A stretch of DNA of 64,000 bases from Diplocarpon mali (taxonomy: Eukaryota > Ascomycota > Leotiomycetes > Helotiales > Drepanopezizaceae). Shown piece after piece: positions 932-63,964 of the stretch. Within the stretch, counting starts at the first letter, position 1. The number at the start of each line of letters is the position of its first letter. The notes beneath the pieces are model-generated. The model saw only the letters and a program-made list of their open reading frames with translations. It was not told where the DNA came from and ran no database searches. Location of the stretch: positions 119,326-183,325 of the forward strand of contig JAENRP010000065.1 of the NCBI GenBank assembly GCA_024741835.1, written 5' to 3'. The position numbers were made by a program, and so were the translations under genes.

Positions 932-954
932 ACTCCTAGGCTTAGCTTGCGGGT
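932..954. repeat. PAL palindrome in ORF-A (GEL-a)
   Basis: 23-bp PAL unit, decayed arms (ACTCCTAGG / TGCGGGT). Same site as 62491 in GEL-e and 42159 in GEL-d. Confidence 0.8.
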
Positions 955-1753
955 TAATCTATTTAATAATAGAACTATTGACTACTATATGATTCCGGTA
1001 GCTAAACAATCGACTAGAGAATTCGCTATTAGGGAAAAATCCTATAAATTATTAAATCTTATACCCTAACGCCTTAAGAATGCTTAATAGATCTTACTGA
1101 ATCTGGCTTAAAATGCAGTACAATAGAAAGAATTAAATACTAGAGAGAAGACACTTCTAAAGGAGTATATCTTTAATAAGATAACTCTATTCTTTATATT
1201 TACTAGATAAGGCACGTTTATTAATATAGAATCTGCTAAAGAACTAGGAAAAGGTGGCTTTCTTACTATTAGCAATAACTATACAAAAGTTGTTAGTAAT
1301 AACTCATTAGAGAATGGCATAGACTTAGAAGATTTTCTTATCAATTCTATTAGTATAAAGAGACCTAGCATTGCAAAATGGAGTATTGCTAGAGAATCGT
1401 TAGCTAAATTTTATATAACGCTTAGTATGATAAAAGGAGGCCTACTATTAGAGGCACTTATAGGAAAACGGCTATAGAATGATCTATTAGTAGTAATGAT
1501 AGTAAAGGAGTTATTCTCCAAAGATATAGCTTAGTTAATAATATATTTGAAGAAGTATAAGTAGGAACTTTTTAATAATTTCACTTACACTTAGAAGCTG
1601 ATTTAATAGTTAGAGCTATAACTATATAGGGATAAGTCCTAGACTAAGATAAAAGGCACTAATGATAATATTAAGGCTAATAATATGATTAATAAGACGA
1701 TCCTTCTCGAAAAGTATAGCATTAAGAAACCTTATGCTAAACCTTCCGATATA

Positions 1754-1776
1754 ACTCCTAGGCCTAGCCTGCAACT
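1754..1776. repeat. PAL palindrome in ORF-A (GEL-a)
   Basis: 23-bp PAL unit in the open C-terminal frame, read T-P-R-P-S-L-Q-L. Same site as 63313 (GEL-e) and 41337 (GEL-d). Confidence 0.85.
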
Positions 1777-2101
1777 TATATCAACTAAAGGTAAAGAAAA
1801 GGAAGTATTATCTATTAAATTGCCTATCTTATCCTCCCTTGCGATAGAAGAATCTCTAAAGGATGATAATGATAATAAAGAGGATGATAATAAGGATGCT
1901 ATAACGCAAGTTTCTATCCCTATCGGCCGAAGTCGTTATACCATACTAGCATTAGCAAAAAGCACTAAGACTCCTGCCACACTAAGACCTATCTTATCAG
2001 ACACTAATAGCGATGCTATAAAAAGAAGTAGTTGTTTAGCAAAAAGAGTATTATCTAGTAATAGTTCTCCCTATCCTTTAAAGAGAATTAAGGAAAACTG
2101 A

Positions 2102-2400
2102 TACTTAAGTTAGTTCTATTTTAATTGTTTTTACAATTCTATAGCCTATTTATTTGTTTTGCTAATTTCGTTTTCTAACTCCTAGGCCTGGCTTATAAGT
2201 GAAAAGTGTATAAAAAAAAAAACTCTTCTTTTTTTCTTTTACCTTTATTAATAATATAGCCTTAGTTAAGGCCTTTTAATATATTAGTTTTCTTATACTT
2301 AGGATTTGCTAATAATTGATATACTATTGCCTTAACTTGTATTATTTTATATTCTTTGCTAAAAGTAGTAAGGGCCACTACTTTTATTATTTAAGATATA
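2102..2400 (+). other. GEL-a 3' trailer, non-coding
   Basis: Between the ORF-A stop and the 3' LTR. It holds one PAL, an A-tract (about 2210-2222) followed by T-rich sequence, and no frame. The same layout is present in GEL-d (40703-41020) and GEL-e (63661-63964). Confidence 0.7.
2178..2200. repeat. PAL palindrome in GEL-a trailer
   Basis: 23-bp PAL outside the coding region, just before the A-tract. Same site as 63738 and 40925. Confidence 0.8.
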
Positions 2401-2647
2401 TATAAAGACCTAGGTATAGATGAATCATATGATAAAAGTCATATAATAGGGCAGGGCCGATAGGAGGATAAAAAGGGCCTCTTCTGTATATAAAGACAAG
2501 CGCGTATCGCCATAGTACTAAATATACCCTATACTTAGGACTTATTCCCAATATCTTATCTAAAAGAGCCCGCTTGTAGTGCTTCCTCCTCTTGTTTTTG
2601 GGTCTTCCCTTAGGCCTATTCTTATGTTATCTCCCCTTTGTTTTATA
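2401..2647 (+). repeat. GEL-a 3' LTR
   Basis: 247-bp LTR starting TATAAAGACC and ending TTTTATA (ancestrally probably TGTA...TACA). The family has further copies at 14897, 24008, 39197, 40458, 48485 and 63965. The antisense strand carries a conserved Lys/Arg/Gly/Pro-coding stretch (see findings). Confidence 0.85.
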
Positions 2648-2648
2648 A

Positions 2649-2666
2649 TAGTCCTGGCTTAGGAGT
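2649..2666. repeat. Partial PAL in CopE-L, split by GEL-a
   Basis: Only the inner part and one arm remain (GTCCTGGCTTAGGAGT), because the GEL-a 3' LTR ends inside the palindrome. Read on the minus strand as T-P-K-P-G-L. Confidence 0.65.
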
Positions 2667-2682
2667 CATTTTCGCAAATTTC

Positions 2683-2705
2683 ACTTATAATCTTAGCTTA
2701 GAAGT
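2683..2705. repeat. PAL palindrome in CopE-L
   Basis: 23-bp PAL, heavily decayed (ACTTATAATC...GAAGT); minus-strand reading T-S-K-L-R-L-x-V. Confidence 0.65.
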
Positions 2706-2772
2706 CTATCTATTCTCCTTATCCTCGCTCAATTGTATTAGGGTAGAGAGTGCACTTTCCTTAAAGGAATCT

Positions 2773-2795
2773 ACTTATAGGTTTAGCTTAGGAGT
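2773..2795. repeat. PAL palindrome in CopE-L
   Basis: 23-bp PAL (ACTTATAGG...TTAGGAGT); minus-strand reading T-P-K-L-N-L-x-V, same frame as the two neighbours. Confidence 0.7.
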
Positions 2796-4472
2796 TAATT
2801 TCTATAATATCACCTTTAAGATAATATAAAGTCTATCTTTGATTTTTACTTTAAAGATCACTTTATAGTTATTATTTATAAACTATATGAATTGATTATT
2901 AAAAACTCTTATATAATTCAACTTTATATAGATCTTGCGGCTAGATAAAAGATTAATACTTAAGCTAGGTATAAGGAGAACATTTTGCAAAAGGAAAGAA
3001 ATGCTAGCGATATTCATTTCTACTATACCTATTAAGTCTATATATAACCTTTTACTATTAACTTTAATAGAGCGCCTTTTTATTTTAATAAGCGGGCCTT
3101 TAAATAGGTAGGGTTTGTCAATTATATATACTATATAACTAGTATCACTATACTAATCGGATTTAAGGATCTTATAAAGATCGGCTTTTAAGATGTAGGC
3201 ATCTTTATTATAATTATTATTTGAATTATCAGAAGTGGATTTAAGTTTAAATGATCTACTATTATTATTAGAAGTATCTGCTAAAGTTCTGGCTAAATAG
3301 CCTTTTCCTTTACCTTTCTTTAATAGTTGCGGCCTTCGGTAGGATAAGGGCAGTTTGCTTCTTGACTTCTGCTTCGATTGCTTCTTAATATTAAAGCTAG
3401 CGATTATATCGATTAGTTGCCTTTTAACTTTATAATTAGTAATATTATAAGTACTATTATAGAAGTAGTATCTCCGATAAGCTTAATGGCTTATCCTGCG
3501 CTCCTTCCTCTTCTTAAGCTTATCGTTGCTTTATAATACGGCATTTGCTATTTTAGAGCGTCCTTTAAGGTCTTGCTTAATAGTTCGAAGGAGGTCGATC
3601 TTCTTATAGATCTTAAGGTTGGGTTAGATAAGAAGAGATTGTTTTATAATAGCAAACTTAAGAAGGAGGCTATTAAGTAGGAAACTAAAAAGTTGAATTT
3701 CCTTAAAAGTTATAGCTATCCTAGGATCTATAGCTCTTATTCTCCTTCTCACTTTATATAGTATAGACTAGGCAGAGTCTATATTTATATCTATATCCTT
3801 ATTATCTTTATCTTTTTTATATTAAAATAAAGTGATCTACTATAGTAGATATTAGGTATTAAAGGCAGTTGTTTAAAAGTATTTTACCTTTAAAGTATCC
3901 TATCTTATCTTTATATTATTATAAATTTGAATAAAATCTCGGTCTTTATTGCTTAAACCTCTATTGATCTTAAGCTTGCATTTAGCTAAGGCTAATCTAT
4001 ACTCCTTCTCCTTTTTTATATTTAAAATCTGCCTTTAGGATTCTCGATTATTATCTATTAAAGCTCTTAGGCTAAGCTTATTTAATATATTTAGCAAATC
4101 CTTAACAGTTATATTAGCTATTAAAGTAAAAGTAGACGAATTAGTAAAGGGAGTATAAGGGGCTATTCTTGCGTATTTAATAAGTATCTTTTAAATCGCT
4201 GTTTCAATACCTTTACTTTTAAAGTAAAGCTTTAAATCGTCGAACTATTATTGCTAGTTCTTTCGAAAGAGTAAGAGGTCTTTAGGCCTAGTGTTTCGAT
4301 CGGAATCGGAAGCTATTGCCGTTTTAAATAGAATTGCATTTAAAATCAAATAAATTAAATGGTTAAAGGCACTCCTCTTATCGAAAAGTCGAAATGATTA
4401 AATAGTAGGTATTATAGAAGTATTAAATAGGAAGGAAGTCCTCTTATCGAAAAGGGTTTTTAGGCTATAACG

Positions 4473-4946: not shown

Positions 4947-4969
4947 ACTCTTAAGCTAGGCTCGCAGGT
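4947..4969. repeat. PAL palindrome in GEL-b
   Basis: 23-bp PAL (ACTCTTAAGC...CGCAGGT), same site as 52326 in GEL-e. Confidence 0.75.
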
Positions 4970-6861: not shown

Positions 6862-6884
6862 ACTCCTAGGCCGGGCCTGCAAGT
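6862..6884. repeat. PAL palindrome in GEL-b gag
   Basis: 23-bp PAL with well-kept core (AGGCCGGGCCTGCAAGT). Same gag site as 50410 (GEL-e) and 15925 (GEL-c). Confidence 0.85.
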
Positions 6885-15492: not shown

Positions 15493-15515
15493 ACTCTTAA
15501 GCTAAGACTGCGAGT
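15493..15515. repeat. PAL palindrome in GEL-c tail
   Basis: 23-bp PAL (ACTCTTAAGC...TGCGAGT) in the non-coding part. Confidence 0.75.
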
Positions 15516-15924: not shown

Positions 15925-15947
15925 ACTCTTAGGCCGGGACTGCGAGT
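15925..15947. repeat. PAL palindrome in GEL-c gag
   Basis: 23-bp PAL (ACTCTTAGGCC / GGACTGCGAGT), gag frame T-R-S-P-G-L-R-V. Same site as 50410 and 6862. Confidence 0.85.
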
Positions 15948-16900: not shown

Positions 16901-16923
16901 ACTTATAGGCCCGGCCTAAGAGT
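16901..16923. repeat. PAL palindrome in GEL-c gag
   Basis: 23-bp PAL (ACTTATAGGCC / GGCCTAAGAGT). Same gag site as 38489 and 49401. Confidence 0.8.
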
Positions 16924-43572: not shown

Positions 43573-43595
43573 TTACCTATAGGCTAGGCCTACGA
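43573..43595. repeat. PAL palindrome in GEL-d ORF-A
   Basis: ACCTATAGGCT / GGCCTACGAGT; same site as 61075. Confidence 0.85.
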
Positions 43596-45226: not shown

Positions 45227-45249
45227 ACTCGCGGGCCAGGCTCGCGGGT
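45227..45249. repeat. PAL palindrome in GEL-d ORF-F
   Basis: ACTCGCGGGCC / GGCTCGCGGGT, little decayed; same site as 59424. Confidence 0.85.
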
Positions 45250-46111: not shown

Positions 46112-46134
46112 ACTTACGGGCTAAGACCGCAAGT
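46112..46134. repeat. PAL palindrome in GEL-d ORF-F
   Basis: ACTTACGGGCT / AGACCGCAAGT; same site as 58539. Confidence 0.8.
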
Positions 46135-47497
46135 GAAAATCGGAATTTCTTTATTAGTAGCATTTGCATTTCTCTTTATTAAAACGACTTAATTATAAAG
46201 ATTAAGGCCAATTAATTAAAGAGGTTTAAGGTAGGCTATAAGCTAATAGGTTCCTCTACTTCTTACTATTATAGCTAAGAGGTAGAGTCTATAATGCATT
46301 TAAAGGACTTATTAAGTAAGATTGAATATTATATTATAAAGAAAATAAGAAGGTATAGAGGTCGCACTATCTATAAAGTAGAAGTAATAAAGATATATCT
46401 TTACTTCTTATCTTATAATAGAAAGGAATATACTTATAAAAGTACTATTATTAGTAGTAAAATTATCGATTAGGAAGCGGCATCTAAAGGGTTTAGGTAT
46501 TATAATTGACCTTTCTTCTTCTATTTCCTTTTACTATTTATTACTTAATAATATCGATAAGAAGGAATTATTCTATTTAATTGACTCTAACGCTTTTAAG
46601 GCTTTAGGATTAGCCTTGAATTTTATAGCACTTAAAGATGCCTCTATTATTAATAGGTTAGATTTGCATATCTTTAAAGAGACGAAGAATTGATTATTAA
46701 AGTGGATTAGAAAAAGATTAATATCTTCTACTATATAAAGAAGTTCGAGGTATTTAATAGTTTCGTTAATATTAAATCCTTTATAATTAAGACTATAGTA
46801 AACCAAAAGAGAGCGAATATAAAGGTCGCAAAGTCTTCTCCTTTCGATTCCTACGCTAAGAAGATACTATCGAAAGCAAGTTTTCATTATAAAAGATACT
46901 TGAATATTATATCATTCTCTAAGCTCAAAGTTGAGAATAACTAATTAAAGCATATTACTATAATTACAAATGTCCTAATTAATAGATTCCTCTTTACGTT
47001 CTCTTTCTTATAAGATAAAATAGTCTCGCTTAGTATTTAAAAGACTAGGTTCTTAACTTTTATAATTATTAAAGAATTGAATAATATCTATAAAGTCGAA
47101 CTTATCTAAGATAAGCTATTAAATCTATCTAATAGCTCTCTTAATCGTCTTTAGAGTAATAGGAATAGGGTCTTCTCTTATATTATTGTTTTTAAAATAG
47201 TTATATATAGATATAAAGAAGTTAAGAACTAGCTCCTTTAAGTTATTAAAGAAGGAGTTTAAGTAAGTGCATAATCCTTTAGTTTTAAATTGCAAATTAG
47301 CTAAAGTAGCTATTAAACGATCTATCCTTTTTAAAGGTTAAGTTAAAATAGGTCGTTTAGCTAAAGGAAAGTCCTTTAAAGATTTTAAAAATTCTAAAGA
47401 GGCTGCGCTAAGCGTTTAGGCAGTTTATTCAATAGTAGTTTTTAAAATTATTTTAATAAGAGGCAGGTTAAGTCTAGTTTTAAAATTCTTATTTCTA

Positions 47498-47520
47498 ACT
47501 CTTAGTCTAGGACTATAAGT
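47498..47520. repeat. PAL palindrome in GEL-d ORF-F
   Basis: ACTCTTAGTCT / GGACTATAAGT; same site as 57153. Confidence 0.8.
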
Positions 47521-48484
47521 CAAATTATATAGTTTAATACTTATTATATCTTTAGATTAAGAAGCGAATTTTAAAGTAGGCTTAATTATAAATAACCAAT
47601 TCCCTTCTTTATTATTAAAGAAATCTTATCTAAACCTTAGTATAAGAGTCTAGTTCTCTTTTAAAATAAGCAAACTATAAGTAGAAGCGCAAAGCCTTAG
47701 TATATTAATAATAGTACTATTAAGTAGGGTAATATTTATAGCCTAATTTGATCTTTTTATAGCTCTATTAGCTATTATAAGTACTGCATTAGATAAGCTT
47801 ATAAATCTGCAATTGCGAATTCGATTGCCTTAGAATTTTGCTACTCCTTTTTAAATAATAAAGAAATTGAGAATCTAAATAGCTTTGGCTATAGGAGTAT
47901 TTTCCTTAAGAATTTTTAATAATACTCGCCTTCTATTATTAGAATCAATATTTATTAAAAAGCGCGAATAAAACAGGAGTCCTTTCTTATTAGTGGCTAA
48001 ATTATCCAATCGTCGAATAGATTCTTCCCTTTTATCTTAGTCTATTTTGAAAGTATCGGCCAAGGTTATATATTAATCTGCGTTAGCTAAGAATTCCTCT
48101 TTAGATATTCCCTTTAGTCTTAATTCTTTAGTTAGGAAGTTATTAAATTAGAGAATTCCAAGGGCTACTTAAGTTAAAAGGTTATTAATAGCATTTGCAT
48201 AAGCTAAAAGGAGTTTTTATTACTCTATATCTCCTAAGGCTACGTAGGTCGATTTAAAGCTCTCTAATGATATAATAGCTCTGCCGTCTTAAGAGAAGTT
48301 TGTAACTAGTGCTTATTCATTTCCTATTATAGTAGATAAAACCATTTATAAGTTCTTTAAAGGCATATTGCTTATGAAAGATAGGGAGTATAAATAAGAG
48401 AGTTCAATAGGGTATAAGAATTAAAAGGGCATATAAGCTATAATAGGTTTACTATATATATATTAAGGAAATTGGACTTTTTAT

Positions 48485-48729
48485 TATAAAGACCTGAGAT
48501 GGATAGGTCTTATGATATATATCATATGATCGGCGCAGGCCGGTAGGAGGATAAAAGGGCCACCTTCTATATATAGAGACAGCGCGTATTGCTATAGTAC
48601 TAAATATACCCTATACTTAGGACTTGTCCCTAATATCTTATCTAAGAGAGCCCGCTTATAGTGCTTCCTCCTTTTGTTTTTAGGTCTTCCCTTAGGCCTA
48701 TTCTTATATTATCTCTCCTCTATTTTATA
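48485..48729 (+). repeat. GEL-e 5' LTR
   Basis: 245 bp, TATAAAGACCTGAG...TATTTTATA. Confidence 0.85.
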
Positions 48730-49014
48730 TTAGTAACCTATATAGGGACCGATTTCTTAAGATTTCTATCCTTATACAACCTTATTGATCTCTTGGTTCG
48801 CAGATAAGAGACCGGCCTTTGAAATACGTCTTCGAAACACTTATAGCATTTTGATCAACTTTAAAACCTCATCCTTAATCGCCTAGTTACTTAGAACTAT
48901 CGATTTTCGTTTAGCAATTATCAACAACCTTAGATTTTCCCTTTTCGGCTCTGCTTTGAAAACCCCTATTTTCTTCCTTAACTCTAAGATTTTCGGAATT
49001 TTCGGCTTCTTAGT
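48730..49014 (+). other. GEL-e leader with primer region
   Basis: Starts TTAGTAACCTATATAGGGACCG. GEL-c suggests the older form TTAATGACCTACGCAGGGAC; the priming tRNA is not identified. The rest is non-coding and conserved with GEL-b. Confidence 0.6.
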
Positions 49015-49400
49015 ATGAAAAGTTTAGCAAACCTTATAATAGCAATCTTAAATAGCAGTAGTTTTAAGTACTTAAGTAATACTAAGCGTAAACTCCAATT
49101 GGAAGTGCCTCTTTAGAATCTTTAGAAATCCGAATCTAATAATTCAGCCGCCTTAGCTTAATAGAACTTTAAAAATTGCCCTAGAATCGTCTCTAAAGAC
49201 CCCTTTATTCTAAGGACTAATAGGAATTGGCCTAAAGGCTAATAAGAATCTTAGATATAAACCTTATCTTAGAAATTAGTCCTTAATTAAGTAAACCTTA
49301 TCTTATTGCAATTAGTTATAATGCTCTTATTAGTTATTTAGCACCTACTTAAAATCTTTTAATAAACTTAGATTAAACTTTTAATAGAATCCGGAATTCT

Positions 49401-49423
49401 ACTCTTAAGCTTAGCCTATAAGT
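49401..49423. repeat. PAL palindrome in GEL-e gag
   Basis: ACTCTTAAGCT / AGCCTATAAGT; one of the few not read in the T-x-x-P frame (reads L-L-S-L-A-Y). Confidence 0.8.
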
Positions 49424-50409
49424 AAAAGGATAAAAAGATATCTTTAAATAACTTAGGACTACTATTTACTTTTTCAATATTAATATTAGAAAATATTAAA
49501 AATAATAATAATTTTAAACTTTTTACTAACCCTTTATCTAAATCTTTTCAAACTCGTTTTAGTTACTCTAAGATTGACTTAGATTCTAAACGTTCTTTAA
49601 GCCCTTTTGAATTTTAAAGTACTCCTCTTAGCAATCAATCTTATAATATTAAAGCTTCTCCTTTGCCTCTTATAGATTCTATCAATTTAAACAGTTAATA
49701 TAAAACGATAATAGCCGCATTTAAGGCTATTACTAGTCACTTTCCCCTTCCTAGTTCCTCTGGCGCTCCTTACTTTATAGGCGCTAATATTACTGATTTC
49801 CTTAAGTAATATAAGGAAACTTATTACAATTTTAGTATTATATAAAAGGATATGATTTCTCGACTTCCTTACTATTATAATTATATAAGCAAGGATATTA
49901 TTAAGTCCCTCCTCAAATAGAAAACTCATAGTTTATAAAAAGTCCTTATTAAGGCCCTTAAATCTAAATTTCGTAAATTTAATAGATAGCAGATTCGCAA
50001 TACCCTAGCTTTCTTAAAGGAATTTATTCTAATCACTTATACTCCTAAGGAACTTAAGAACTACTATCGGACTTTTACTTATATATTAAATACCTTAATC
50101 AGTTAGAAAATACTTAGCAAAGTTAAAAGAGGCCGCCTTTTCTTACTTAAATTACCTACTAGACTTTAAAACAAGATTATTAAGTATTTTAAGATTAATA
50201 AGTAAGACCTTATAACCTTTGCCTTATTTAAGGAATTCGCAGCCTTTGCTTTAAAATCAGATCTTAATAAGAGAACTATTAATGCTATAGAGTAGGAAAA
50301 AGCCCTTACTCCCTCCTATACTAAAGACCTTAAGAGCCTGGTCCAAGAACACTCAAAGGCTTTAGAAGTCATAAAGGAGGTAAAGAAGAACCTAATAGTT
50401 ATACCTTTC

Positions 50410-50432
50410 ACTCGCAGTCCCGACTTAAAAGT
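50410..50432. repeat. PAL palindrome in GEL-e gag
   Basis: ACTCGCAGTCC / GACTTAAAAGT, read T-R-S-P-D-L-K-V within the Gag coiled-coil region. Confidence 0.85.
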
Positions 50433-52325
50433 AAGATCCAACCTTAAAATTAAAGAACTTAAGACCCAATTTACAGAACTCCGAATCTAAAGCTTAGAAA
50501 CTAGGATTAATAATCTCTTATAGGAAAAATAGCATATTATCTAATTTAATAATAAGCAAAACTCAGCTACTATAAGCCAATATAATAATTCCTATTACTA
50601 GACTCCTGCTTTTTATCATTTAAAAGAACCAGCTAATATAAGAACTTAATAGTTGATTAAAGAAGGAGAAATTAATCCTAACTAGCACTTTGCTAATATT
50701 AATGCTATAAAGTATTAAAGGAATGGCAATAGAAGACGATTAACCTACAACTTTTATAATAATAAAGAACCTAACTGCGCTTTATATAAGTATTATAACA
50801 ATTGCCCTCTTTTCTATCGTTTTATTAACACTAAGGTTATATATATTAATAAGTATAGGATGCTTTATATTAGAGATCCTAGGCTAAAAGCTATCCCTAT
50901 TAAAAAGCACTAGAATCGCTTATAGTTATAGACTATTTGAATAATAATATATAGTATAAAATGGGACGAGAATTTAGTCGAACGATAGCGTATTATAGAT
51001 ATAAATACTAAAATTCCAACTTATATATATACTAGTCCAATTAGCAACCTACTTAAGGGAGTTCTTAAGGACCTAGCTTTTGATCAAATAGCTATAGAAG
51101 TTAAAGGTATCTCCGTCTTAGGATGGATTAATAATAATATATCTACTAATATTAATACTGCTTCTATATCCAGAAACCCTTAGAATACTTAGCGTCCTTT
51201 TAGATCTACTACTCCCTTAATACTAATAAAACTAGCCAAAGTCTAGAAATCAATATATGCAACTTAGGAATCTCAATATAAAGTCCAAACGCTAAAAGAC
51301 ACTTAATAATCTAAAACTATAGTAGATAAGGATAAAGCCGATATAGTAGATAAATTGATTAGAGATATAATAGATAAAGATGGCTTTAAGCTTAAAGATT
51401 AAGAAATTAAAGTTATTGCGCGGACCCTTAACCTTAAGCGAAAGAGATAGATATTAAAATAGGAAAAATTTATTAATAAATACACTAGTTCAACCGTAAT
51501 AGAGAAAGCTATAGAGAATATCATAGCTTAGCAAATTAACCTTACGTTTAAAGACCTATTTGATTTGATTAGACGCTTTAATAAAGTGCTAAGAAAGCAT
51601 ATCCTAATAGCCTTTAAAGATTTGAATAATAATAAGGAAATAGAAATTGTAATATAAAAGAACTTTGAAAAGCACTTAGCCTTAATTAAATATCTTTAGA
51701 TTATAGAAAACGAAGGAACCTAGAGGTACTATAATATTATAGTAATAGCTTTAATATCTTAGAATATCAATCGAAATTGTTTAGCAATTGCAATAAAAAG
51801 CCCTATTATTATTTATTTAATAAAAGAATCAGTTAAAGCAAAGGCTTTAATCGATTATAATTTAGAAGTTAATGCAATAATTAGAAAAGTGGTAGAAATA
51901 GCTTAATTGATAATCGTTAGCGATCGACTCCTTATTTATTCGACTATCTTTAGATCGAAATACAATTTTAATAGATAGGTGAAAAATGTAAAGGTTAGAG
52001 TTAGAGAAATCGTTAATTATACTGACTTTCTAATAATAGAGAATTCTTTAAATGATATTCTTTTAAGAATGCCCTTTATTTTAGAATCTCAGCTAATATT
52101 TAACTATCCTAGAGATAGGCTTATAAAAGCTAGCCTTTAGAATATAGATCGATCCTTGAAAGGATAAATGGTTATTATAAGAGATATAGTCGAATTCTAG
52201 AATAAGGTTTTAGGAAACGATTAGCTAGTATAAGGGCTAGGCTTAATGCTAGTAAAGGAAGGCACCTAGCAAGGAGTTATAGTAAAAGAAAGGTGAGTTT
52301 ATCGATTTTAAATAATAGTAATTTG

Positions 52326-52348
52326 ACTTATAGTCTTAAACTAGGAGT
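52326..52348. repeat. PAL palindrome, protease-RT linker (GEL-e)
   Basis: ACTTATAGTCT / AACTAGGAGT arms; the T frame here equals the downstream RT frame, not the upstream protease frame. Confidence 0.7.
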
Positions 52349-52487
52349 TAAATCTGGAATTTTGAAAAATAGTGCAATTAGCATTTTATTAGCTTAACAA
52401 TTAAGAAAAAAGAAAAATAAGGTAAAGAAGAGAGTTTATTTTATAAATTTTAATAATTTACTAATTATTTTAAAAAACCTAAAAACC

Positions 52488-52510
52488 ACTTATAAGCCAG
52501 ACCCGCAAGT
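52488..52510. repeat. PAL palindrome in GEL-e pol
   Basis: ACTTATAAGCC / GACCCGCAAGT, read T-Y-K-P-D-P-Q-V in the RT frame. Confidence 0.85.
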
Positions 52511-54454
52511 GAAAAATAATAAAATTACTAATAATATTTCCATTTACGCACTTTAAATTAATAACTTAGAAAATCTTTTATTTATTTTTAAAAAGGAAAA
52601 TTCGGATCATTTTATAAGATTTGATAAAAAAGGAAAGAAGCAAAGAAGTATAGTATTAGCTAATATTCGAACTATATATAAAAGTAAGGCTAATAAAGTA
52701 CAACTAGTAGATTAGGGAATCTCTAATAGCTTAAAGCCTAAAGGACTAGATAATTAGTTTAAATAAGATAAGAAGCTTCGACCTTTAAAGCTAAGTAGTA
52801 AATTCGATAAGTTTATTATAAGTAGATTTTCTAATAAACCCATCGGATATCAATTAATAAAAGAACATTTTAATATACTGAAAATTAAAGAAGACTTAAT
52901 AGAATAAGAACGCGAACTACTTTATAAAACTTTAACAAATCGAAAGGACGCCTTAGCTTTTGATTAAATGGAACTTAGCTAGATTTAAAAAGAGGTCATA
53001 CCTTATATTAAGATTAAGATAATACCTTATGAAGCCTAGTAAAAGAAAACATTTAGGGTCCTTAAAGCTCTTTAAGAAAAGGTAATCGAAATATTAAAGG
53101 ATAGGCTAAAGCAAGGTGTTCTCGAGTTCTATAATAGCTTTTATAAGAACAAATAGTTCTTAGTTATTAAGAAGGAGAAGGGAACTTATAGACTAATAAT
53201 AGCGGTAGTAGAAATGAACCGAGTAACTGTTAGAGACGCTAATATTCCTCCGAATATAGATAAGTTCTTAAATGAATTCGTAGGATTAACCTGCAGCTCT
53301 TTTATTAACTTCTTCTTTAGATATAACTAATTTATTCTTAATGTTAAATCGAGAGATATAATAGTAATTCAAACCCTTCTTAAGCTACTTCAAATGATAA
53401 GATTACCTTAAGGAGCTATAAATTCGATCGCTTAATTTGTCTAAGTAATCTATAAAATACTAATAGATTATATACCTAATATTGCGCTCCCTTATATAGA
53501 TAATATAAGAGTAAAAGGATTAAGATCATTTTATAACTATAAAGAAGTTCTCCTTAGTATATAATAATTTATAATAGAATATATTTAGAACCTAGACTAA
53601 GTGCTTATATGATTTAAAAGGGTAAGAGCAATAGTTGGTCCGAAGTTATAATACTATCTCCTATTAATGGAAATTGTTAGTTTTATTACTAATTCTAATA
53701 GCTGAAGTCCTTAGAAGGCTAAAGTACTTAAAATCGATAAATAGAAGAAGTATGATAATATAGTAGAAGCTCGCGCGTTTATTAGAGTTATAGTATACTA
53801 TTGCATTTAGATTAAGGATTTTGCTAAAAAGGCAGCACCTATTTACTCCTTATTTTGGAAAGGGGCTGAGTTTCAATAGGAGAAATCCTAAATAGAGGTT
53901 ATAAAACAACTGAAGCAAGCGTTGCTTAAGGTGCCTTATCTGATTAAAATAGACTATAGAGCTAATGCTAGGCCAATTATACTAATAGTTAACGCAAGCT
54001 TAATCGGATAGGGTACTATCCTTTAATAAGCTAATAGCTAGTAGAAAAGACATCTAGCTCACTTTGAAAGTAGTCTTTAGAATCTAGTAAAGATAAAGTA
54101 TAATACTATTAAATAGGAATACAAAAGCGCCTTAAAGGCGATGAAAAAGATAAGAAGCAACCTTTATAATACTTACTTTATTCTTAAAACCAATGCTAAA
54201 GTACTAGTGGAATAACTAAATAGAGCTATAAGCGACCTATTAAGAGCCTTACTAATGAAATAGATTGCTTAAATAAGATTAATGGACTTTAAAGTCAAAC
54301 ACATTCTAAGAACGAAAAACACTGCCGCCGACAGCCTTTTAAAAAGAACTCGGCCCTACCCTTCTAATTTGATTGAAGAAGATAAAACAGATATTAATAA
54401 GTAGGTAAAAAACGAAGTTAGTTGTCTATTAATATATTGCCTTAAAGGGATTCG

Positions 54455-54477
54455 ACTCGCAAGCCTAGCCTATAAGT
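54455..54477. repeat. PAL palindrome between RNase H and integrase (GEL-e)
   Basis: ACTCGCAAGCC / AGCCTATAAGT; here the pol frame reads I-R-L-A-S-L-A-Y, one of the exceptions. Confidence 0.8.
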
Positions 54478-55889
54478 CAAATAAGAGAATTTTATCACCT
54501 AACTACTTAAGTGACTTTAAAGAAATCGCAAAGTTTTTAATCACATTTAAATAATTAAAGACAGTTGCTCTTAAGGATTTTTAGAAATTTAAAGCTAAAG
54601 CTCTAATTTATCTAATGCAAAGAAGACGATTATTCAAAAGGAGCAATAACTTATTCCTTATATAACTCTATTTAAATAATGAAAAACTAAGGGCTAAGGC
54701 TATCTAGGATATTTATAAGGAAATTGGCTATTAAAGAGCTAAGTCTACTTACTATTAACTCTTAAGAAAATTCTTTTAAAAAGGCTCTTTTAAGAATTAT
54801 AAAGCTTTTATAAAGAGTTGCATCCCCTATTAGAAACGAAAACCTAATTATAAGGAAAATCCCTTATTCCCAACCTGGCTATTAGGCCTTTTTTATAAAG
54901 TCAGCCTTAATATTATATAAATACTAACTACTAAGAATAGGATAATATATTTTATTTTAGCAAAGGAAGACCTATTAGGATGGCTTAAAGGATAACCTTT
55001 AAGATCTGCTAACTTTGAATCTATTGCAAAGTTCCTTTAAGAAGATATGGTCTATTATTATAGACTTTTTAATAGATTAACTATTAATAAAGGCCTTGAA
55101 AATAAAGGAATAGTTAAAGCTTTCTTATAAAAATATAACATTAAACGGGTTCAAATCTTAGCGTATAACTCGAAAGCTAATAGAGTAATAAAATAAGGAT
55201 ACTATAATATTCTTAATAGTCTATCTAAAGTTACTTGCAAAGGATTTAAGGATTAGATAAAACGCTTTTATAAAATACTCTTTGCTTATTGAATGATAAT
55301 CTATAAACCGACTAGAGTTATACTATTCTTCCTTATCTATAGTAGAAAGGCATAGCTCCTTTTTAAATCCTAATAGCCTATTTAAAGATTGTTTAACTAT
55401 AGTTAAATTCAGAACCGTTCCGATTTACTTATAATAAGATGCTAATAACTTAAGCTCTAAGATATAGATATAAAGGAAATTATTCTATAAAAGAAACGAT
55501 ATTAGGAAAAAGCTAAAGAAGCGTAGGCTGCTTCTAAAGTATTTAAAATGCACCCTATTTGAAAAGATGATCTTATCCTAGTCTATAATATTGCAAAAAG
55601 TATTAATATATTAGCAGATATTAAACTTAACTATTAATAGCTTAGTCTATTTAAGGTTAAATCTAAGTAGAAAGAAAAGGGATACTATTCTCTTTAGGAA
55701 CTTAATAGAATCGATATTAAGGGAACCTTTGCAGCTAATCGACTAAAGCGCTTTTATCAATGCAACTAGACCTTATTCCCTTTAGAAGACGAATTAGAAA
55801 TTGATATAACTTCTAAATCCTTTGCAAGAACCGATAGTAATATAAGCAATTTTAAACCCTTAGATAAAGACTAAGATTTTTCCAATTTG

Positions 55890-55912
55890 ACCTATAAGCC
55901 AGTCTTGCGAGT
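55890..55912. repeat. PAL palindrome near end of GEL-e pol
   Basis: ACCTATAAGCC / GTCTTGCGAGT, read T-Y-K-P-V-L-R-V. Confidence 0.8.
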
Positions 55913-56050
55913 AAAGAATATTAAAATACCTAACTAATCGCAACCTTAAGTTATTATTCTTAAAATATCCGAAAAACGCAAGTAGGAATACTAAACGATT
56001 TCCTAGCTTATTAATTGTCTTACCTTCCTTTAATCCTTATTTTTATATTT

Positions 56051-56306
56051 TTAATAAGGTCGCCTCCTTTATTATTTAAAATATAGATCTTTTAAGATCA
56101 CTTTAAATTCTTGCCTACTTTGACTTATTTTACATTCTTAATATTGGCCTTTAATTATAATATTCTTATTACTTTCCTTAAATAATAAATAAAAAGTCCA
56201 ATTTCCTTAATATATATATAGTAAACCTATTGCAGCTTATATGCCCTTTTAATTCTTATACCCTATTGAACTCTCTTATTTATACTACCTATCTTTTATA
56301 AGTAAT
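56051..56306 (+). other. Pol to ORF-F spacer (GEL-e)
   Basis: About 250 bp, AT-rich, no frame. The part from 56171 is shared with GEL-d (48367-48484). Confidence 0.6.
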
Positions 56307-57152
56307 ATGCTTTTAAAGAACTTATAAATGGTTTTGTCTGCTATAATAGGGGATAAATAAGTATTAGTTATAAACTTCTCTTAGGATAGTAGAGCTATTA
56401 TATTATTAGAGAGCTTTAAATCGACTTACGTAGCCTTAGGAGATATAAAGTAATAAAAACTCCTTTCAGCTTATGCGAATGCCATTAGTAACCTTTCAAC
56501 CTAAGTGGCCCTTGGAATTCTCTAATTTAATAACTTCTTAATTAAAGAATTAAAACTAAAGGGAATCTCTAGAAAGGAATTCTTAGTTAATGTAGATTAA
56601 TACATAACCTTGGCCGATACTTTTAAAACGGATTAAGATAAAAGAGAAGAATCTATTTGATAATTAGATAATTTAGCTATTAATAAGAGAGGACTCCTAT
56701 TTCGTTTGCGCTTTTTAATAAATATTGATTCTAATAATAGAAGATAAGTATTATTAAAAATTCTTAAGGAAAATACTCCTACTACTAGAGCTATTTAGAT
56801 TCTCAATTTCTTTATTATTTAAGAAGGAGTAGTAAAATTCTGAGGCAATCGAATTCGCAGTCGCAGATTTGTAGGCCTATTTAATATAGTATTTATAACA
56901 GCTAATAAGGCTATAAAAAGATCAAATTAGGCTATAGATATTACCTTACCTAATAGTACTATTATTAATATGCTAGGGCTTTGCGCTTCTACTTATAGTT
57001 TGCTTATTTTAAAAGAGAACTGGACTCTTATAATAGGGTTTAGATGAGATTTCTTTAATAATAAAGAAAGGAATTGGTTATTTATAGTTAAGCCTGCTTT
57101 AAAATTCGCTTCTTAATCTAAAGATATAATAAGTGCTAAACTATATGATTTA

Positions 57153-57175
57153 ACTCGCAGTCCTAGACTAAGAGT
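57153..57175. repeat. PAL palindrome in GEL-e ORF-F (codon 283)
   Basis: ACTCGCAGTCC / AGACTAAGAGT, read T-R-S-P-R-L-R-V; counterpart of ORF-A codon 297. Confidence 0.85.
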
Positions 57176-58538
57176 TAGAAATGAGAATTTTAAAACTAGA
57201 CCTAACTTGCCTTTTGCTAAAATGATTTTAAAAACCGCTGCTAAATAAACTGCTTAAACGCTTAGCGCAGCCTCTTTAGAATTTTCAGAATCTTTAAAGG
57301 ACTTTCCTTTAGCTAAACGACCTATTTTAGCTCGACCTTTAAAAAGGATAGATCGTTCGATAGCTACCTTAGCTAATTTGCAATTTAAAACCAAAGGATT
57401 ATGCGCTCGCTTAGACTCCTTCTCTAATAACTTAAAGGAGCTAATTCTTAACTTCTTTATATCTATATGCAACTATTTTAGAAATAATAATATAAGGGAA
57501 GACCCTATTCCTACTACTTTAAAGATAATTAAGAGAGCTATTAAATAGATTTAATAGCTTATCTTAAATAAGTTCGCCTTTATAAATATTATTTAATTCT
57601 TTAATAATTATAAAAGTTAAGAACCTAATCTCTCAAATACTAAGCGAGACTATTTTATCTTATAAGAAAGAGAATGCGAAAAGGAATCTATTAATTAAGA
57701 CATTTATAATTATAGCAATATGCTTCAATCGGTCATTCTTAACCTTGAGCTTAAAGAATAATATAATATTCAAGTGTCCTTTATAATAAAGACTCGCTTT
57801 TAATAGTATCTTCCTAGCGTAGGAATCGAAGGGAGAAGACTTTGCGACCTTTATATTTGCTCTCTTTCGGTTTACTATAGTCTTAATTATAAAGGATTTG
57901 ATATTAATAAAACTATTAAATACCTCGAACTTCTTTATATAATAGAAGATATTAATCTTTTTCTAATCTACCCTAATAATTAGTTCTTTATCTTTTTAAA
58001 GATATGCAAATCCAACCTATTAATAATAGAAGCATCTTTAAGTGCTATAAAATTTAAGGCTGATCCTAAAGCTTTAAAGGCGTTAAAGCCGATTGAATAA
58101 AACAATTCTTTCTTTTTAATATTATTAAGTAATAAATAGCAAGAGGAAATAGAGGAAGAAGGGTCAATTATAATGCCTGAACCCTTTAGATACCGCTTTC
58201 TAACTGACAATTTTACTATTGATAATAGTGCTTTTATAAGTATATTCCTCTCTATTATAAGATAAGAAGTAGAGATATACCTTTATTACTTCTATCCTAT
58301 AGATAATGCAACTTTTATACCTTCTTATTTTCTTTATAATATAATATTCAGCCTTACTTAATAAGTCCTTCGGATGCATTATAGACTCTACCTCTTAGCT
58401 ATAATAGCAAAAAGTAAAGGAGCCTATTAGCTTATAGCCTACCTTAAACCTCCTTAATTAATTGGCCTTAGTCTTTATAATTAAGTTATTTTAATAAAAA
58501 AAGATGCAAGTGCTACTAATAAAGAAATTCCGATTTTT

Positions 58539-58561
58539 ACTTGCAGTCCTAGCCTATAAGT
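58539..58561. repeat. PAL palindrome in GEL-e ORF-F (codon 745)
   Basis: ACTTGCAGTCC / AGCCTATAAGT, read T-C-S-P-S-L-x-V; counterpart of ORF-A codon 769. Confidence 0.85.
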
Positions 58562-59423
58562 CAATTTTATTAAAAAGCAAGTCTTAGATTATTAGATCTT
58601 ACCAATCAGATAAGGGCCAGCTTCTAGAAGCCTTAATAAGTAGGTCGGCTCTTAGTCGATTATAAAACTCACTCTATCTGCGAAGAAGATGAGTCGATGG
58701 ACTTCTTAAGCACTTAGTTTAAAATCTCAATTAGCTTAAATAATCGCAAAGTTGAAGCAAAAGGAGATCTTACAACCTATTACTAATAATAGCAATCTAA
58801 TTATAGTAATAATAAAATAGAAATACCTTTTTAAAATGCTTTCGGATAATTCTTATAGGACTAATAGTTTTATAGCCTTTTGCAATAACTATACGGCCGT
58901 TCTTAATAAGAATACCTTAGAAAATAAGACTTAAATCTTCGATTTTATCTTTTTAGTCTTTGCTTTAAAGCAACTTCTAGTACCTCGATAGATTAATATA
59001 AGTAGAACTATTGCACCTTTTAAGGTAGCTTTTCATCTTAAGAACTGCGGTAGCCTTTTTAAAGCTATTATTAGTTAATACTCTTAAATAGATCTATTAG
59101 TTATAATCAAAGTATAGGAGTTGTTTCTTTTTAATAAAGACGAATTGAAAATCCACCTTATAAAATATAATCAGAAGCTCTTTAATACCTTTATTAAAGC
59201 TTAGATAAACATTATAAATACTAAGTCGCTTCTTTATAGACTTAAGTCTTAAGGATAGCGCAATAAAGTAAATACTATTTAAGAGCCTAATATACTAATT
59301 AATAAAGGCATTATTATAAGAAAATTTAAAAAAGAGATAAACTAAGACTCTAGTATAGTATTAGACCTTGATTTAAGAACCAATCCCCTATTTTTACCCT
59401 TAAGCTTAGAAACGCTAAGACTG

Positions 59424-59446
59424 ACTCGCAAGCCTGGCCTGCGAGT
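59424..59446. repeat. PAL palindrome in GEL-e ORF-F (codon 1040)
   Basis: Best-kept copy: ACTCGCAAGCC, T, GGCCTGCGAGT, one mismatch between arms. Read T-R-K-P-G-L-R-V. Counterpart of ORF-A codon 1043. Confidence 0.9.
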
Positions 59447-59624
59447 GAGGTTAGACTTAGCTAGCTTAAGCCTATAAGATAATTCAAATGAACCTTAGTC
59501 ACCAAATCTAAGGGTACTAATAGAAGATCCTTTAAAAGAGGTCCTTAAAGCTAAGAAATCGCCGAGAAATAAGAACTAACGCAAGAGAAGAAGACTCTAA
59601 AGTAATAATAGAACTGACAATTGA

Positions 59625-60186
59625 GTCGACTTAAGCCTAGAGAATTAAGTCTACTACCTCCCCCTTTAAAAACTATTTAAAGAGATTGCGAATTAGAAGT
59701 TGAAATTTTTAAAGATTATCTACTTTTTATATACCTATACCTCTTTATTCTTAACCTATTGTTCTATTTTATATATATTCTTTATTTACTTTACTCTTTA
59801 TATAATTTATTCTTTAATTATTCCCTTTGTATATAACTTTCTAACGCTTACCTTTGAAATGTCTTCCTTACCTTTAACAATTGTCATTTACCAATTGTAG
59901 GTCCTTATATATATCATACCCTACTTTTGTTCCTACTTCTAAGCTTATTATACCTACTTTTCCTATGTGTACTAGCGCGATTTCAAACTCTATAAATAAG
60001 CCTCTCCTTGTACTACGATTTTACTTTTTTTACTTTTTCTATAACCCTACTAGACCTATAATACTAGTACTACTACTATTATCTTTTATTATTAATCTTT
60101 TCTAGTATAAGCCTCTTATATTATTAATCTTTCTTAAATAATCATCTCTTTGTTTAGAACTACTTCCCCTTATTAAATAATTCATT
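59625..60186 (+). other. Spacer between ORF-F and ORF-A (GEL-e)
   Basis: T-rich, non-coding. Short chance frames occur on both strands but differ from GEL-d. Confidence 0.65.
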
Positions 60187-61074
60187 ATAATACTATTGAG
60201 CTTAAGCAAGAGAGCCATACCTAAGAAGAACATATCAGTTGTAGCTTTAGGTAGCAAACCCTTAAACACTGCTAATAATAAACTAATATTAAAGGGTAAC
60301 TTTTTATAAGATAGAAAAGCTCTAAGATCATTAGAAGATGTGGTAAGCACCTATAAAACGTTAGGTGAAATAGAATAGCAAGTATTTTTAAACTTATTTA
60401 TAAAAGTATTAAACTATAGAATTTCTACTATAAAAGAAGGATTTTTAGGCTTTGATGATTTTCTTAAGAATAAGCTTAAAATAAAAGGGATCAATTGTGA
60501 AAAATTTCTATAGGAATATTAAAGGTATATTAATTCTATAGATTTGTTTTAGAAAAATCGAAATAAGAAGAATAAGTATATAAAAAGATTATTATAGTTT
60601 ATAAGTAGCACTTATAGTACACTTTTCCAGACCTACTTTATAACTGATATTACTATTAATAATGCCTTATAAGGGCTTGGTAAAATCTTTAAGATATACC
60701 AACTTATAGCAAAGGCTATATAAGTATTGAATTATTTCACTATTTAAGAAGGTATGAAAAAGCTGTAAGAAAATAGCATTAAAGGTAGAAAATTTATTAG
60801 GTTCTTAAGTACTATTATACACTCTACTATTTAGACTATAAAAGATGAACCCTTGTAGTATAATAATTTTGCACTTCCTAATTAAACTGTTTTAAATATA
60901 CTTAGCCTCTAATAGTCGCAATATAGTCTACTTATTATAAAAGAAAAGATGACTTATCTTATTGAGTATACTATAAATTACTTCGACAATAAGTTAGAGA
61001 GATAGGAGTTTATTATCCCTATTACTTTAAAAATGCTACTACCCTTAATAGGAATAACTGATAAGGAGAATTTA

Positions 61075-61097
61075 ACTCATAGGCCTGGCTTATAAGT
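61075..61097. repeat. PAL palindrome in GEL-e ORF-A (codon 297)
   Basis: ACTCATAGGCC / GGCTTATAAGT, read T-H-R-P-G-L-x-V. Confidence 0.85.
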
Positions 61098-61260
61098 GGA
61101 ATTAGCATATAAGGAGAATGTCCCTAAGCCAGAGGTGCCTATGATACTAGGAACTTAAGCAGCTAACCTGCTTAACTACTATTCCTTTAACTTAGACGAA
61201 TTTGAGTTACTATCTTTAGAAATACCTTAAATACTTTAAATACTAGTAGTAAAGAAAATG

Positions 61261-61283
61261 ACTCGCGGGCCTGGCCTATAGGT
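61261..61283. repeat. PAL palindrome in GEL-e ORF-A (codon 359)
   Basis: ACTCGCGGGCC / GGCCTATAGGT, read T-R-G-P-G-L-x-V. No PAL at the matching place in ORF-F. Confidence 0.85.
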
Positions 61284-62490
61284 TAATATACGTAATATTA
61301 TAGACTTAGAAGATGAATTATCTAATAAAGAAATAGGCATTATCACTAATATATTGGAAATTTTTAATAATATTAAAAAGGATACCGCCGATATTGTGCA
61401 ATCTTTCCCTAATAACTTGCAAAAATTTGTTCTTAAATTCTATAAGTTAATAATAAAGCGTTTAAGAAAAGAAGGTCAGGGAGAAGTCTTATTAGCATAA
61501 GAAGGGATAATAAGAGCCGTTAAGTAGATTATAAAATTACTATAAGACGAATTTTCTATAGATAATATTATACAGTTCTTTATTAAGTATAAGAAATTGA
61601 AGGGTGACTTTTATATTCTTAAGGAGAAATCCGAAGTTAATACGAATATCATCTTTATAGAATATTATTAGGTCCCCTTTAATATAAAGATAATACTATA
61701 GTATAGTAATAGTTTTAAGATAGTAGTAATATTGGAAATAAAGATAAGACTTGCAAAGTTTGTAATAGGAATGTTTAAGGACTTCAATTTTGAAAAGTTC
61801 TACGCCCTTTATAAACGCCAATATACGTAGTACTATAGATTGGCAATAATAGGCCTTACTAATAAAGATGTGTTGTCTAATATCTATAAATTTTGCACCG
61901 CTCTTAACCCAACCTTGTTTTTATTACATTTAGGAAATTATGCAATTATAGCTACTAGCAATAGAATAGTAAGCTAAGTTAAGAAGGATATATCGTTAGG
62001 CTTCTTTAAGTTCAGAGTAGCACCTAAAGCCCTTAAATTATTCTATAATATTATATAGACCCCTGTTTAGTATAACGCTATACTGACTATTGATAACTTT
62101 ATATTATTCTGCAGCAAAGGCTTTTTAAATATGCCTAAGTTGTTTAGCTGCGCCTTTTTAAGCGCTATGCGCACGTATAATTATAGTAATTGTAGAAAGA
62201 ATTCATTTTTAATATTAGTATAAGAAGAATTAGAAATATACTAATACTACTTCCGGACCTTAGATAAGAAGCTAAACCTCCCCTTTGCCTACCTCTATAA
62301 TATGACTTATAGCTTAATATAATAGATACTAAAGATATATTATAGATTGTACTTAGGTGCTTTACTAACTTAATATAAGTCTTTATATAAACTAATAATA
62401 TATCTTAAGCTTATATAGTTTATTAAAATTGACTACTACTTAAGAGTTATTACTATTAAGATTAATATTAATATAAGATTTATAAGATTG

Positions 62491-62513
62491 ACTCCTAGGC
62501 CCGGCTCGCGGGT
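62491..62513. repeat. PAL palindrome in GEL-e ORF-A (codon 769)
   Basis: ACTCCTAGGCC / GGCTCGCGGGT, read T-P-R-P-G-S-R-V. Confidence 0.85.
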
Positions 62514-63312
62514 CAATCCACCTGATAATAGAACTATTGACTACTATATGATTCTAGCAGCTAAACAATCGACTGGAGAATTCGCTATTTAGGAAAAATC
62601 TTATAAATTATCAAATCTTATACCTTAATGCCTTAAGAATGCTTAATAGATCTTATTAAATCTGGCTTAAAATATAGTATAATAGAAAGAATTGAACACT
62701 AAAGAGAAGATACTTCTAAAGGAGTATATCTCTAATAAGACGATTCTGTTCTCTATATTTATTAGATAAGGTACGTTTATTAATATAGAATCTGCTAAAG
62801 AACTAGGAAAAGGTGGCTTTCTTATTATTAATAATAATTATATAGAAGTTATTAGCAATAACTTATTAGAGAATGGCATAGACTTAAAAGATTTTCTTAT
62901 TGATTCTATTAGTATAAAGAGACCTAGCACTGTAAGATAGAGTATTACTAGAGAATCGTTAGCTAAATTTCGTATAATGCTTAGTATAATAAAAGGAGGC
63001 CTACTATTAAAGGCACTTGTAAGGAAACGGCTATAAAACGATCTATTAATAGTAATGATAGTAAAGGAGTTGTTTTCTAAAGATATGACTTAGTTGATAA
63101 TATATCTAAAGAAGTATAAGTAGGAACTTTTTAATAATTTCACCTACACTTAAAAGCTAATTCAATAGTTAGAGCTATAACTATATAGGAATAAGTCCTG
63201 GACTAAGACGAAAGGCATTAATAATAACATTAAGGCTAATAATATAATCGATAAGATAATCCTTCTTAAAAAGTATAGTACTAAGAAACCTTATACTAAA
63301 CCCTCTGATATA

Positions 63313-63335
63313 ACTCCTAGGCCTAGCCTGCAACT
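63313..63335. repeat. PAL palindrome in GEL-e ORF-A (codon 1043)
   Basis: ACTCCTAGGCC / AGCCTGCAACT, read T-P-R-P-S-L-Q-L. Confidence 0.85.
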
Positions 63336-63660
63336 TGTATTAACCAAAGGTAAAGAAAAGGAAGTATTATCTATTAAATTGCCCGCCTTATCTCCCTCTA
63401 TAGTAGAAGACTCTTTAAAGAATAATAATGATAATAAAGAGGATAATAATAATAATACTATAATATAAGTCTCCTTCCTTATTAGCAGAAGCTATTAAAC
63501 TATATTAGCATCTTTATAAAATACTAAAGCTCTTATAATACTAAGACCGGACTCTTCTAATATTAATAGTAAACTATTAAGAAGAAGTAGGCGCTTTATA
63601 AAGAGAGTATTATCTAATAATAGTTCTCCCTATCCTTTAAAGAGAACTAAGGAAAATTAA

Positions 63661-63964
63661 TATTTAGGTTAGTACTATTTTTAATTGTTTTTGCAACTCT
63701 ATAGCTTGTTTATTTGTTTTGCTAATTTCGTTTTCTAACTCCTAGGCCTGGCCTATAGGTGAAAAGTGTATAAAAAAAAAAAAAACTCTTTTTTTTTTCC
63801 TTTTACCTTTAATAATAATATAGCCCTAGTTTAGGCCTTTTAATATATTAGTTTTCTCGCACTTAGGGTTTGATAGTAATTGATATACTATTGCCTTGAC
63901 CTATATTGTTTTATATTCTTTACTAATAGTAGTAAGGGCTACTACTTTTATTATTTAGGATATA
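63661..63964 (+). other. GEL-e trailer
   Basis: Non-coding; PAL at 63738, A-tract at about 63771-63785, then AT-rich sequence to the LTR. Same layout as GEL-a and GEL-d. Confidence 0.7.
63738..63760. repeat. PAL palindrome in GEL-e trailer
   Basis: ACTCCTAGGCC / GGCCTATAGGT. Confidence 0.85.

Follow-up and report, generated by a model that had tools for sequence, protein, structure and literature searches.

An in-frame 23-bp palindromic repeat in unrelated long terminal repeat retroelements of the fungus Diplocarpon mali

The repeat, its hosts and its decay

We analyzed a stretch of 64,000 bp from Diplocarpon mali (contig JAENRP010000065.1, positions 119,326 to 183,325; hereafter the window), in which a 23-bp palindromic repeat, here called PAL, recurs within Ty3-like and copia long terminal repeat (LTR) retroelements. 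An earlier sequence-only reading had described open reading frames (ORFs) in this DNA. The window contains no stop-free frame of 200 amino acids (the longest has 152), and "ORF" here designates the frame in which stops are much scarcer than in its two alternatives. Pfam was run on such frames with X at the stops. The elements that carry PAL in the window are the following (PR, protease; RT, reverse transcriptase; RH, RNaseH; INT, integrase).

48485..64000, + strand: GEL, long Ty3-like LTR element; 5' LTR at 48485-48735; 14 PALs; sense taken from stop counts
40453..48484, - strand: second GEL copy, truncated, antisense; 82% identity to 56188-64000 over 7,858 bp; 8 PALs
1..2652, + strand: third GEL copy, 3' part; 86% identity to 62354-63997; LTR end inside a CopE PAL
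2653..3841, - strand: CopE, copia PR-INT part with a PAL array; 81% protein identity to L035 (RVT_2)
29586..36767, - strand: GypH, Ty3-like; RVT_1, RNaseH, terminal repeats; PALs in gag, in the PR-RT linker (array of four) and in the RH-INT linker

In all, PAL was found in two families each of Ty3-like and copia elements and in one further element that appears to be non-coding. GEL was assigned to the Ty3-like elements by its RNaseH and integrase zinc-binding (H2C2) matches, and GypH by RVT_1 and RNaseH. The genomic stretches L001 and L026 represent one copia family (copia-1, 79% protein identity), and CopE forms the second with L035; RVT_2 is matched in L026 and in L035, and the two families are 27% alike in RT. 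No protein similarity at E 1e-3 was found between GEL and GypH, nor between the Ty3-like and the copia hosts, which bears out the earlier proposal that the hosts are unrelated. The fifth host carries two or three PALs 61-66 bp apart, has no low-stop frame and sits within other elements, with boundaries at L026:8864, L028:2197 and L034:727. As previously noticed, scoring of the window found no PAL in its elements Gyp1, Gyp2 and CopD.

GEL is unusually long, at about 15.7 kb. Its second LTR starts around 63965 and leaves the window, the direct repeat of the LTR start being seen at 63965-64000. Two more long frames follow pol (56283-59760 and 60103-63660) and are 29% alike over about 1,000 amino acids (E 2e-60). 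No Pfam match was obtained for 60103-63960, nor, outside RNaseH and integrase, for the frame running through 56283-59760.

The sequence-only reading had listed 41 PAL starts, which were read off the sequence and then scored with a weight matrix built from 38 of the listed copies. Its count of about 41 copies resolves into 39 full copies and two half-sites, both of which (2649 and 15377) it had correctly marked as partial. Those 38 score between 20.5 and 36.7 bits, against a maximum of 12.9 in three Markov-shuffled windows, where nothing attained 14. The sites are given below on the basis of sequence reading and matrix score, without strand, phase 0 being ACT-first.

932..954: PAL; same site as 62491 and 42159
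1754..1776: PAL; same site as 63313 and 41337
2178..2200: PAL; same site as 63738 and 40925
2649..2666: half PAL cut by a GEL LTR end; uncut site at L035:3734, matched by eye
2683..2705: PAL in CopE; phase 0
2773..2795: PAL in CopE; phase 0
4947..4969: PAL in GEL fragment; same site as 52326
6862..6884: PAL in GEL fragment; same site as 50410
start 15377: half PAL adjoining a run of N
15493..15515: PAL; partner site sought, none found
15925..15947: PAL in diverged GEL fragment
16901..16923: PAL in diverged GEL fragment
31491..31513: PAL, GypH RH-INT linker; phase 0; 2-3 units of 45 bp in other copies
33393..33550: four PALs at 45-bp spacing (33393, 33438, 33483, 33528), GypH linker before RT; phase 0
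35318..35340: PAL in GypH gag frame; phase 0
38489..38511: PAL in GEL fragment; same site as 49401
40925..40947: PAL, second GEL copy
41337..41359: PAL, second GEL copy
42159..42181: PAL, second GEL copy
43389..43411: PAL, second GEL copy
43575..43597: PAL, second GEL copy; start corrected from the 43573 listed earlier
45227..45249: PAL, second GEL copy
46112..46134: PAL, second GEL copy
47498..47520: PAL, second GEL copy
49401..49423: PAL, 5' edge of GEL gag frame; off phase
50410..50432: PAL in GEL gag frame; phase 0
52326..52348: PAL, GEL linker before RT; phase 0
52488..52510: PAL, GEL linker before RT; phase 0; location of palindrome-codable peptides of other fungi
54455..54477: PAL, GEL RH-INT linker; phase 2 (exception)
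55890..55912: PAL after GEL integrase; phase 0
57153..57175: PAL, GEL; phase 0; filled in 40/40 scored copies
58539..58561: PAL, GEL; phase 0
59424..59446: PAL, GEL; phase 0; CGCA type in both arms
61075..61097: PAL, GEL; phase 0
61261..61283: PAL, GEL; phase 0
62491..62513: PAL, GEL; phase 0
63313..63335: PAL, GEL; phase 0
63738..63760: PAL, 3' edge of GEL before LTR; off phase

At 2640-2705, the LTR end of the third GEL copy, whose other end lies beyond the window, falls inside a PAL of the CopE array. Between PR and INT, the CopE relative at L035:347-3885 carries six PALs at intervals of 30-90 bp; a further one follows RNaseH. Similar arrays, with steps of 39/48 bp, are found on several contigs, including one at the start of C1.

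Because the matrix was trained on the listed copies, counts in the whole genome provide an independent test of PAL. A search with ACTCCTAGGCCTGGCCTGCGAGT at up to 3 mismatches gave 748 forward and 803 reverse matches, and its backwards control 0 and 0. With ACTCSCGGGCCNGGCCCGSGAGT we obtained 863 sites at up to 3 mismatches (control 0), 22 of them exact. A decay-tolerant pattern (C/T and G/A allowed) has 7,877 exact genome sites, its backwards control again giving 0. As this pattern picks up 25 of the 39 copies in the window, the genome-wide number may be near 12,000. The shuffle and backwards controls rule out PAL as a chance palindrome or artefact. Besides PAL, the window has only two GC-richer palindromes, the same number as the shuffles. 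PAL has no Rfam family at the gathering threshold, and a tRNA search gave none. No earlier description of such palindromes in fungal retroelements was found in the open-licence literature; one of four 11-mers occurs in the text of 14 papers, none of them recognizable as related from titles and the beginnings of abstracts.

The least-mutated PAL reads ACTC[C]CGGGCC-N-GGCCCG[C]GAGT, 23 letters with one built-in mismatch. This mismatch, at positions 5/19, is fixed: 21/22 exact sites combine one CCC arm with one CGC arm, and the remaining one has two CCC arms. Among 93 PAL copies, 74 are asymmetric, 19 have two CGC-type arms and none has two CCC-type arms. The arms given in the sequence-only reading match no window copy exactly (1 mismatch in the closest copy, at most five in 13 copies) and correspond to a decayed form. 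Its CGCA, like the CCTA often seen, arose from PAL by decay of the type left by repeat-induced point mutation (RIP).

The G+C content of the window is 31.6% (20,222/64,000 bases). Relative to expectation, CpA and TpG stand at about 0.4 and TpA/ApT at 1.5, a bias that we take to be the signature of RIP. It is strong across 1-64000; the genome also has a separate gene-rich part near 50% G+C. From the assembly (49.4 Mb, 676 contigs), 20 stretches of 10 kb were chosen by contig number before inspection. Thirteen were gene-rich, with 48-59% G+C, and had no PAL; the other seven held 35 PALs in five stretches and none in two (L019, 44% G+C; L023, 39% G+C and RIP-like). Within this sample, PAL is confined to the AT-rich compartment.

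The RNA of the undecayed PAL folds as a self-complementary hairpin (-12.7 kcal/mol, z -2.3). The palindrome is not strictly kept: among the 7,877 copies, pair 9/15 is G-C in 2,597 (by subtraction), T-A in 579 and mismatched in 4,701. If the arms changed independently, about 1,090 T-A pairs would be expected. This deficit indicates no compensatory change and argues against strict selection on pairing.

Codon phase, linker position and arrays

For the phase count, arrays were taken once and frames were set by Pfam or by stop counts; stop counts were the sole basis for GypH gag, GEL gag and the GEL 3' ORFs. Copia sites that follow RNaseH possibly lie beyond the stop codon. The ACT-first phase was found at 19/20 coding sites (binomial p 1e-8), or 19/22 with the two GEL edge sites included (p 4e-7). 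By host, it accounts for 11/12 inner sites of GEL, 3/3 of GypH, 3/3 of copia-1 and 2/2 of CopE. The single preferred phase of the sequence-only reading is thus confirmed, the distribution not being flat, and so is its figure of six in six for the GypH copies. Its "3 of 3" in CopE holds for the phase in the two full copies, the third being a half-site. In the GEL copy at 48485-64000, 11/14 PALs are ACT-first, and 63738 has to be added to the exceptions it had recognized, 49401 and 54455.

In the preferred phase, PAL encoded T-x-G-P-G-P-x-V before decay, and because it is a palindrome the peptide is nearly identical from both orientations. Opposite orientations occur within a single element with the phase unchanged (copia L001/L026). 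In the Pfam-matched frames no PAL lies inside any Pfam match, all being between domains: PR-RT and RH-INT in both GypH and GEL and after integrase in GEL; gag-PR and INT-RT in copia-1, PR-INT in CopE, and after RNaseH in both copia families.

To determine occupancy, joined flanks were compared with the genome, and the best 40 of 175-247 candidates were scored per search. At GEL 57153, none of the 40 copies was empty; the length is 23 bp in all but one, which has 24. The RH-INT site of GypH holds one to three PALs per copy in 45-bp steps (lengths of 23 bp in 9 copies, 68 in 26, 113 in 4 and 77 in 1). At the INT-RT site of copia-1, lengths range from 20 to 170 bp, and 39/40 fit a frame-keeping length of 23+3k. 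Its gag-PR site showed 39 paired copies of 71-89 bp, 37/39 of which fit, and one more copy with half only. Overall, 116/119 array copies keep the frame (40/40, 39/40 and 37/39 at the three sites). Array lengths change in threes, which indicates that the arrays were altered while the frame still mattered.

The flanks were grouped by BLAST linkage into 21 site clusters, one large cluster merging array sites. They share an AT-rich pattern with a pyrimidine at -2 in 21/21 and a purine at +2 in 20/21. Sites 54455 and 49401, both off phase, have this pattern too, as would suit a target preference at the DNA level. We also considered a mobile hairpin with its pairing extended by the flanks, and rejected it: the consensus is present, but the left and right bases pair no more than composition predicts.

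Relatives in other fungi and known palindromes

Intact proteins related to GEL pol, with identities of up to 49%, are present in the protein collection; no homologue was confirmed in viral contigs. At the N-terminal linker matching GEL 52326 and 52488, many of these relatives have peptides of a common kind, among them FLEPGSRN, LPEPGSGR, LREPGSRR, FRGPGPRN, FNRPGLLN, FPSPGLGN and FRNSELRN. If a palindrome is centred at the third position of the middle codon, every residue to the left determines codon positions one and two of the residue opposite; peptides that allow this pairing are called palindrome-codable here. Of 164 proteins, 20 distant ones were dropped; in those of the remaining 144 that have an anchor motif, all four pairs are compatible at 16/1,131 N-terminal centres against 10/12,522 elsewhere (Fisher p 1e-11, a value that is too small since the pol proteins are related to each other). 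These 16 centres represent about nine different words, and at least four of the centres look like chance. In 15 peptides of the frame F-x-x-[PS][GE]-x-x-[NK], the inner pair is compatible in 11/15 and both inner pairs in 7/15. Over the whole of pol, an excess of palindrome-codable peptides is not clear (27 runs of at least four pairs against 34 and 17 with mock codes and about 17 in shuffles). Only the third-base-centre register beats the shuffles (19 against about 8), and its excess falls in the N-terminal linker.

At the protein level, then, pol relatives of other fungi appear to carry a palindrome of the size (eight codons) and register of PAL, written in different letters. It is possible, though rather doubtful, that fungal Ty3-like elements generally have an in-frame eight-codon (23 bp) palindrome near the start of pol, with lineage-specific letters and constant size, register and symmetry, and that in some genomes one word spread to many linkers, to copia and to other elements. 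Such palindromes would amount to a eukaryotic class of protein-coding palindromes. Separately, residue 1150 of P0038, another fungal pol, lies in a palindrome-codable FPHPGLGN near the C-terminus, a position like that of the GEL post-integrase site.

In-frame coding palindromes are selfish DNA known from a few bacteria such as Rickettsia. Rickettsia palindromic elements (RPEs) measure about 100-150 bp, and repetitive extragenic palindromic (REP) elements are mostly extragenic, with a known RAYT transposase. The fungal case offers thousands of copies, several retroelement families, fixed sites family-wide and frame-keeping arrays, together with related elements in other fungi that seem to carry other words. 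How such palindromes spread can thus be studied comparatively, because the traces expected from insertion, from replacement and from arm-to-arm correction differ. Annotators should treat PAL words in transposon proteins as features of the DNA and not as motifs of the protein.

RPEs are in-frame codon insertions in non-structured segments (PMC2996958). By this description PAL resembles them and their Wolbachia relatives as a palindrome that is read in frame within coding sequences of unrelated genes, where structure is loose; its dispersal in Ty3-like, copia and non-coding elements and its preferred phase agree with the Rickettsia parallel of the sequence-only reading. PAL differs in its 23 bp, in residing in nuclear LTR retroelements of a fungus rather than in host genes, and in its frequent tandem arrays. 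With REP elements and GTAG- and CGTC-tagged palindromes (20-40 bp, high copy; PMC3733652) it shares the short palindrome and the high copy number. PARCEL likewise combines coding dyad symmetry, tandem copies and a link to mobile elements (PMC2996958), but consists of longer amphipathic protein repeats in membrane proteins, of other sequence. The Conserved Hairpin Site of GalEa copia elements has a strictly conserved mismatch and surroundings common to different families within a species (PMC5445492). It resembles PAL as a hairpin of fungal LTR elements with such a mismatch in several families of one species; unlike PAL, it is single, non-coding and placed just after the 5' LTR, whereas PAL sites are found in coding domains and between them. 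Yeast Ty1 dimerises through a short palindrome (PMC5454406), as does Ty3 through PAL6, which is GC-rich and in gag (PMC11381356). These too are palindromes in LTR-element RNA; they differ from PAL in having 6 nt, in being few and near the 5' end, and in belonging to one element each.

Origin of PAL and rival explanations

We tentatively favour, at a little short of even confidence, the view that PAL is a hairpin module that gained entry to linkers in several LTR retroelements, was propagated as their passenger and then decayed. A 23-bp hairpin-forming DNA module would have been placed, in either orientation, where retroelements tolerate extra residues, mainly in interdomain linkers. Once in place, it would have multiplied as frame-keeping tandem units, with selection on the polyprotein keeping the reading frame, and would have been carried along at each transposition of its host until RIP-type mutation decayed host and PAL together. 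The physical route may have been insertion of a hairpin or single strand, or template switching during reverse transcription. The same word with the same odd mismatch (21/22) in hosts without protein similarity argues for copies of one source, not convergence, and a single source probably seeded all families.

Several results weigh against this passenger module. Among the scored copies, no empty site was found at any of four sites (40/40, 40/40, 40/40 and 39/39 filled), so that PAL insertion, and the independent movement suggested by the sequence-only reading, are inferred. As 23 is not a multiple of three, any insertion would have brought extra bases. No enzyme for PAL was found, no search aimed at a RAYT or HUH transposase having been made. 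An automated lowest-stop test gave weaker support for the phase, with a clear winner in 17/93 copies (14 in phase 0, 2 in phase 1 and 1 in phase 2). The undecayed word is also stop-free in all three phases, and stop avoidance alone therefore fails to explain the missing phase 1.

PAL could instead be a working RNA signal, a dimerisation, packaging or priming hairpin maintained by selection and common to families that cross-package. The fold of the undecayed word, the Ty1, Ty3 and GalEa precedents (PMC5454406, PMC11381356 and PMC5445492) and the palindrome-codable peptide kept with other letters at the same linker in other fungi would all suit such a role. We nevertheless consider it rather unlikely, since pair 9/15 is broken in 4,701/7,877 copies with T-A rarer than independence predicts, compensatory pairing thus being absent within this genome, since the 5/19 mismatch is fixed, and since one GypH site holds 1 to 3 copies and one element up to 14, far from the 5' end. 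If the peptide were what matters, as a spacer at the joints of the polyprotein or a site of protease cleavage there, with the DNA palindrome secondary, one would understand the one phase at 19/20 sites, the frame-keeping arrays and the positions at the gag-PR, PR-RT, PR-INT, RH-INT, INT-RT and pol-end joints. This account seems distinctly unlikely: the RH-INT site at 54455 shares the DNA flanks but not the reading phase, PAL also occurs in an element that has no low-stop frame, copia-1 has none at PR-INT and CopE none at INT-RT, and unrelated families use identical codons, third positions included.

Shared ancestry or recombination between hosts, PAL itself being immobile, would account for the same place in every scored copy of a family and for PALs in the PR-RT and RH-INT linkers of both Ty3-like families. 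GEL and GypH, and the Ty3-like and copia hosts, have no other similarity at E 1e-3, yet carry an identical 23-bp word, which makes this very unlikely; shared ancestry as the only cause, raised earlier as a point that would undo the claim, is excluded between Ty3-like and copia hosts. The least probable explanation, in our view, is that mutation keeps the palindromy, one arm copying the other in the hairpin (quasi-palindrome correction), so that words drift and symmetry stays. Symmetric CGC/CGC copies (19/93) and the other words in the same register in other fungi agree with it. Against it stand the mismatch at 5/19, which is fixed, and pair 9/15, where one-armed changes are in excess; correction would have produced the reverse of both.

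Elsewhere in the window, LTR-like repeats related to the GEL LTR lie beside Gyp1 and Gyp2, at 14894-15145 and 24005-24256, and have the word AAGAATAGGCCTAAGGGAAGAC in common.

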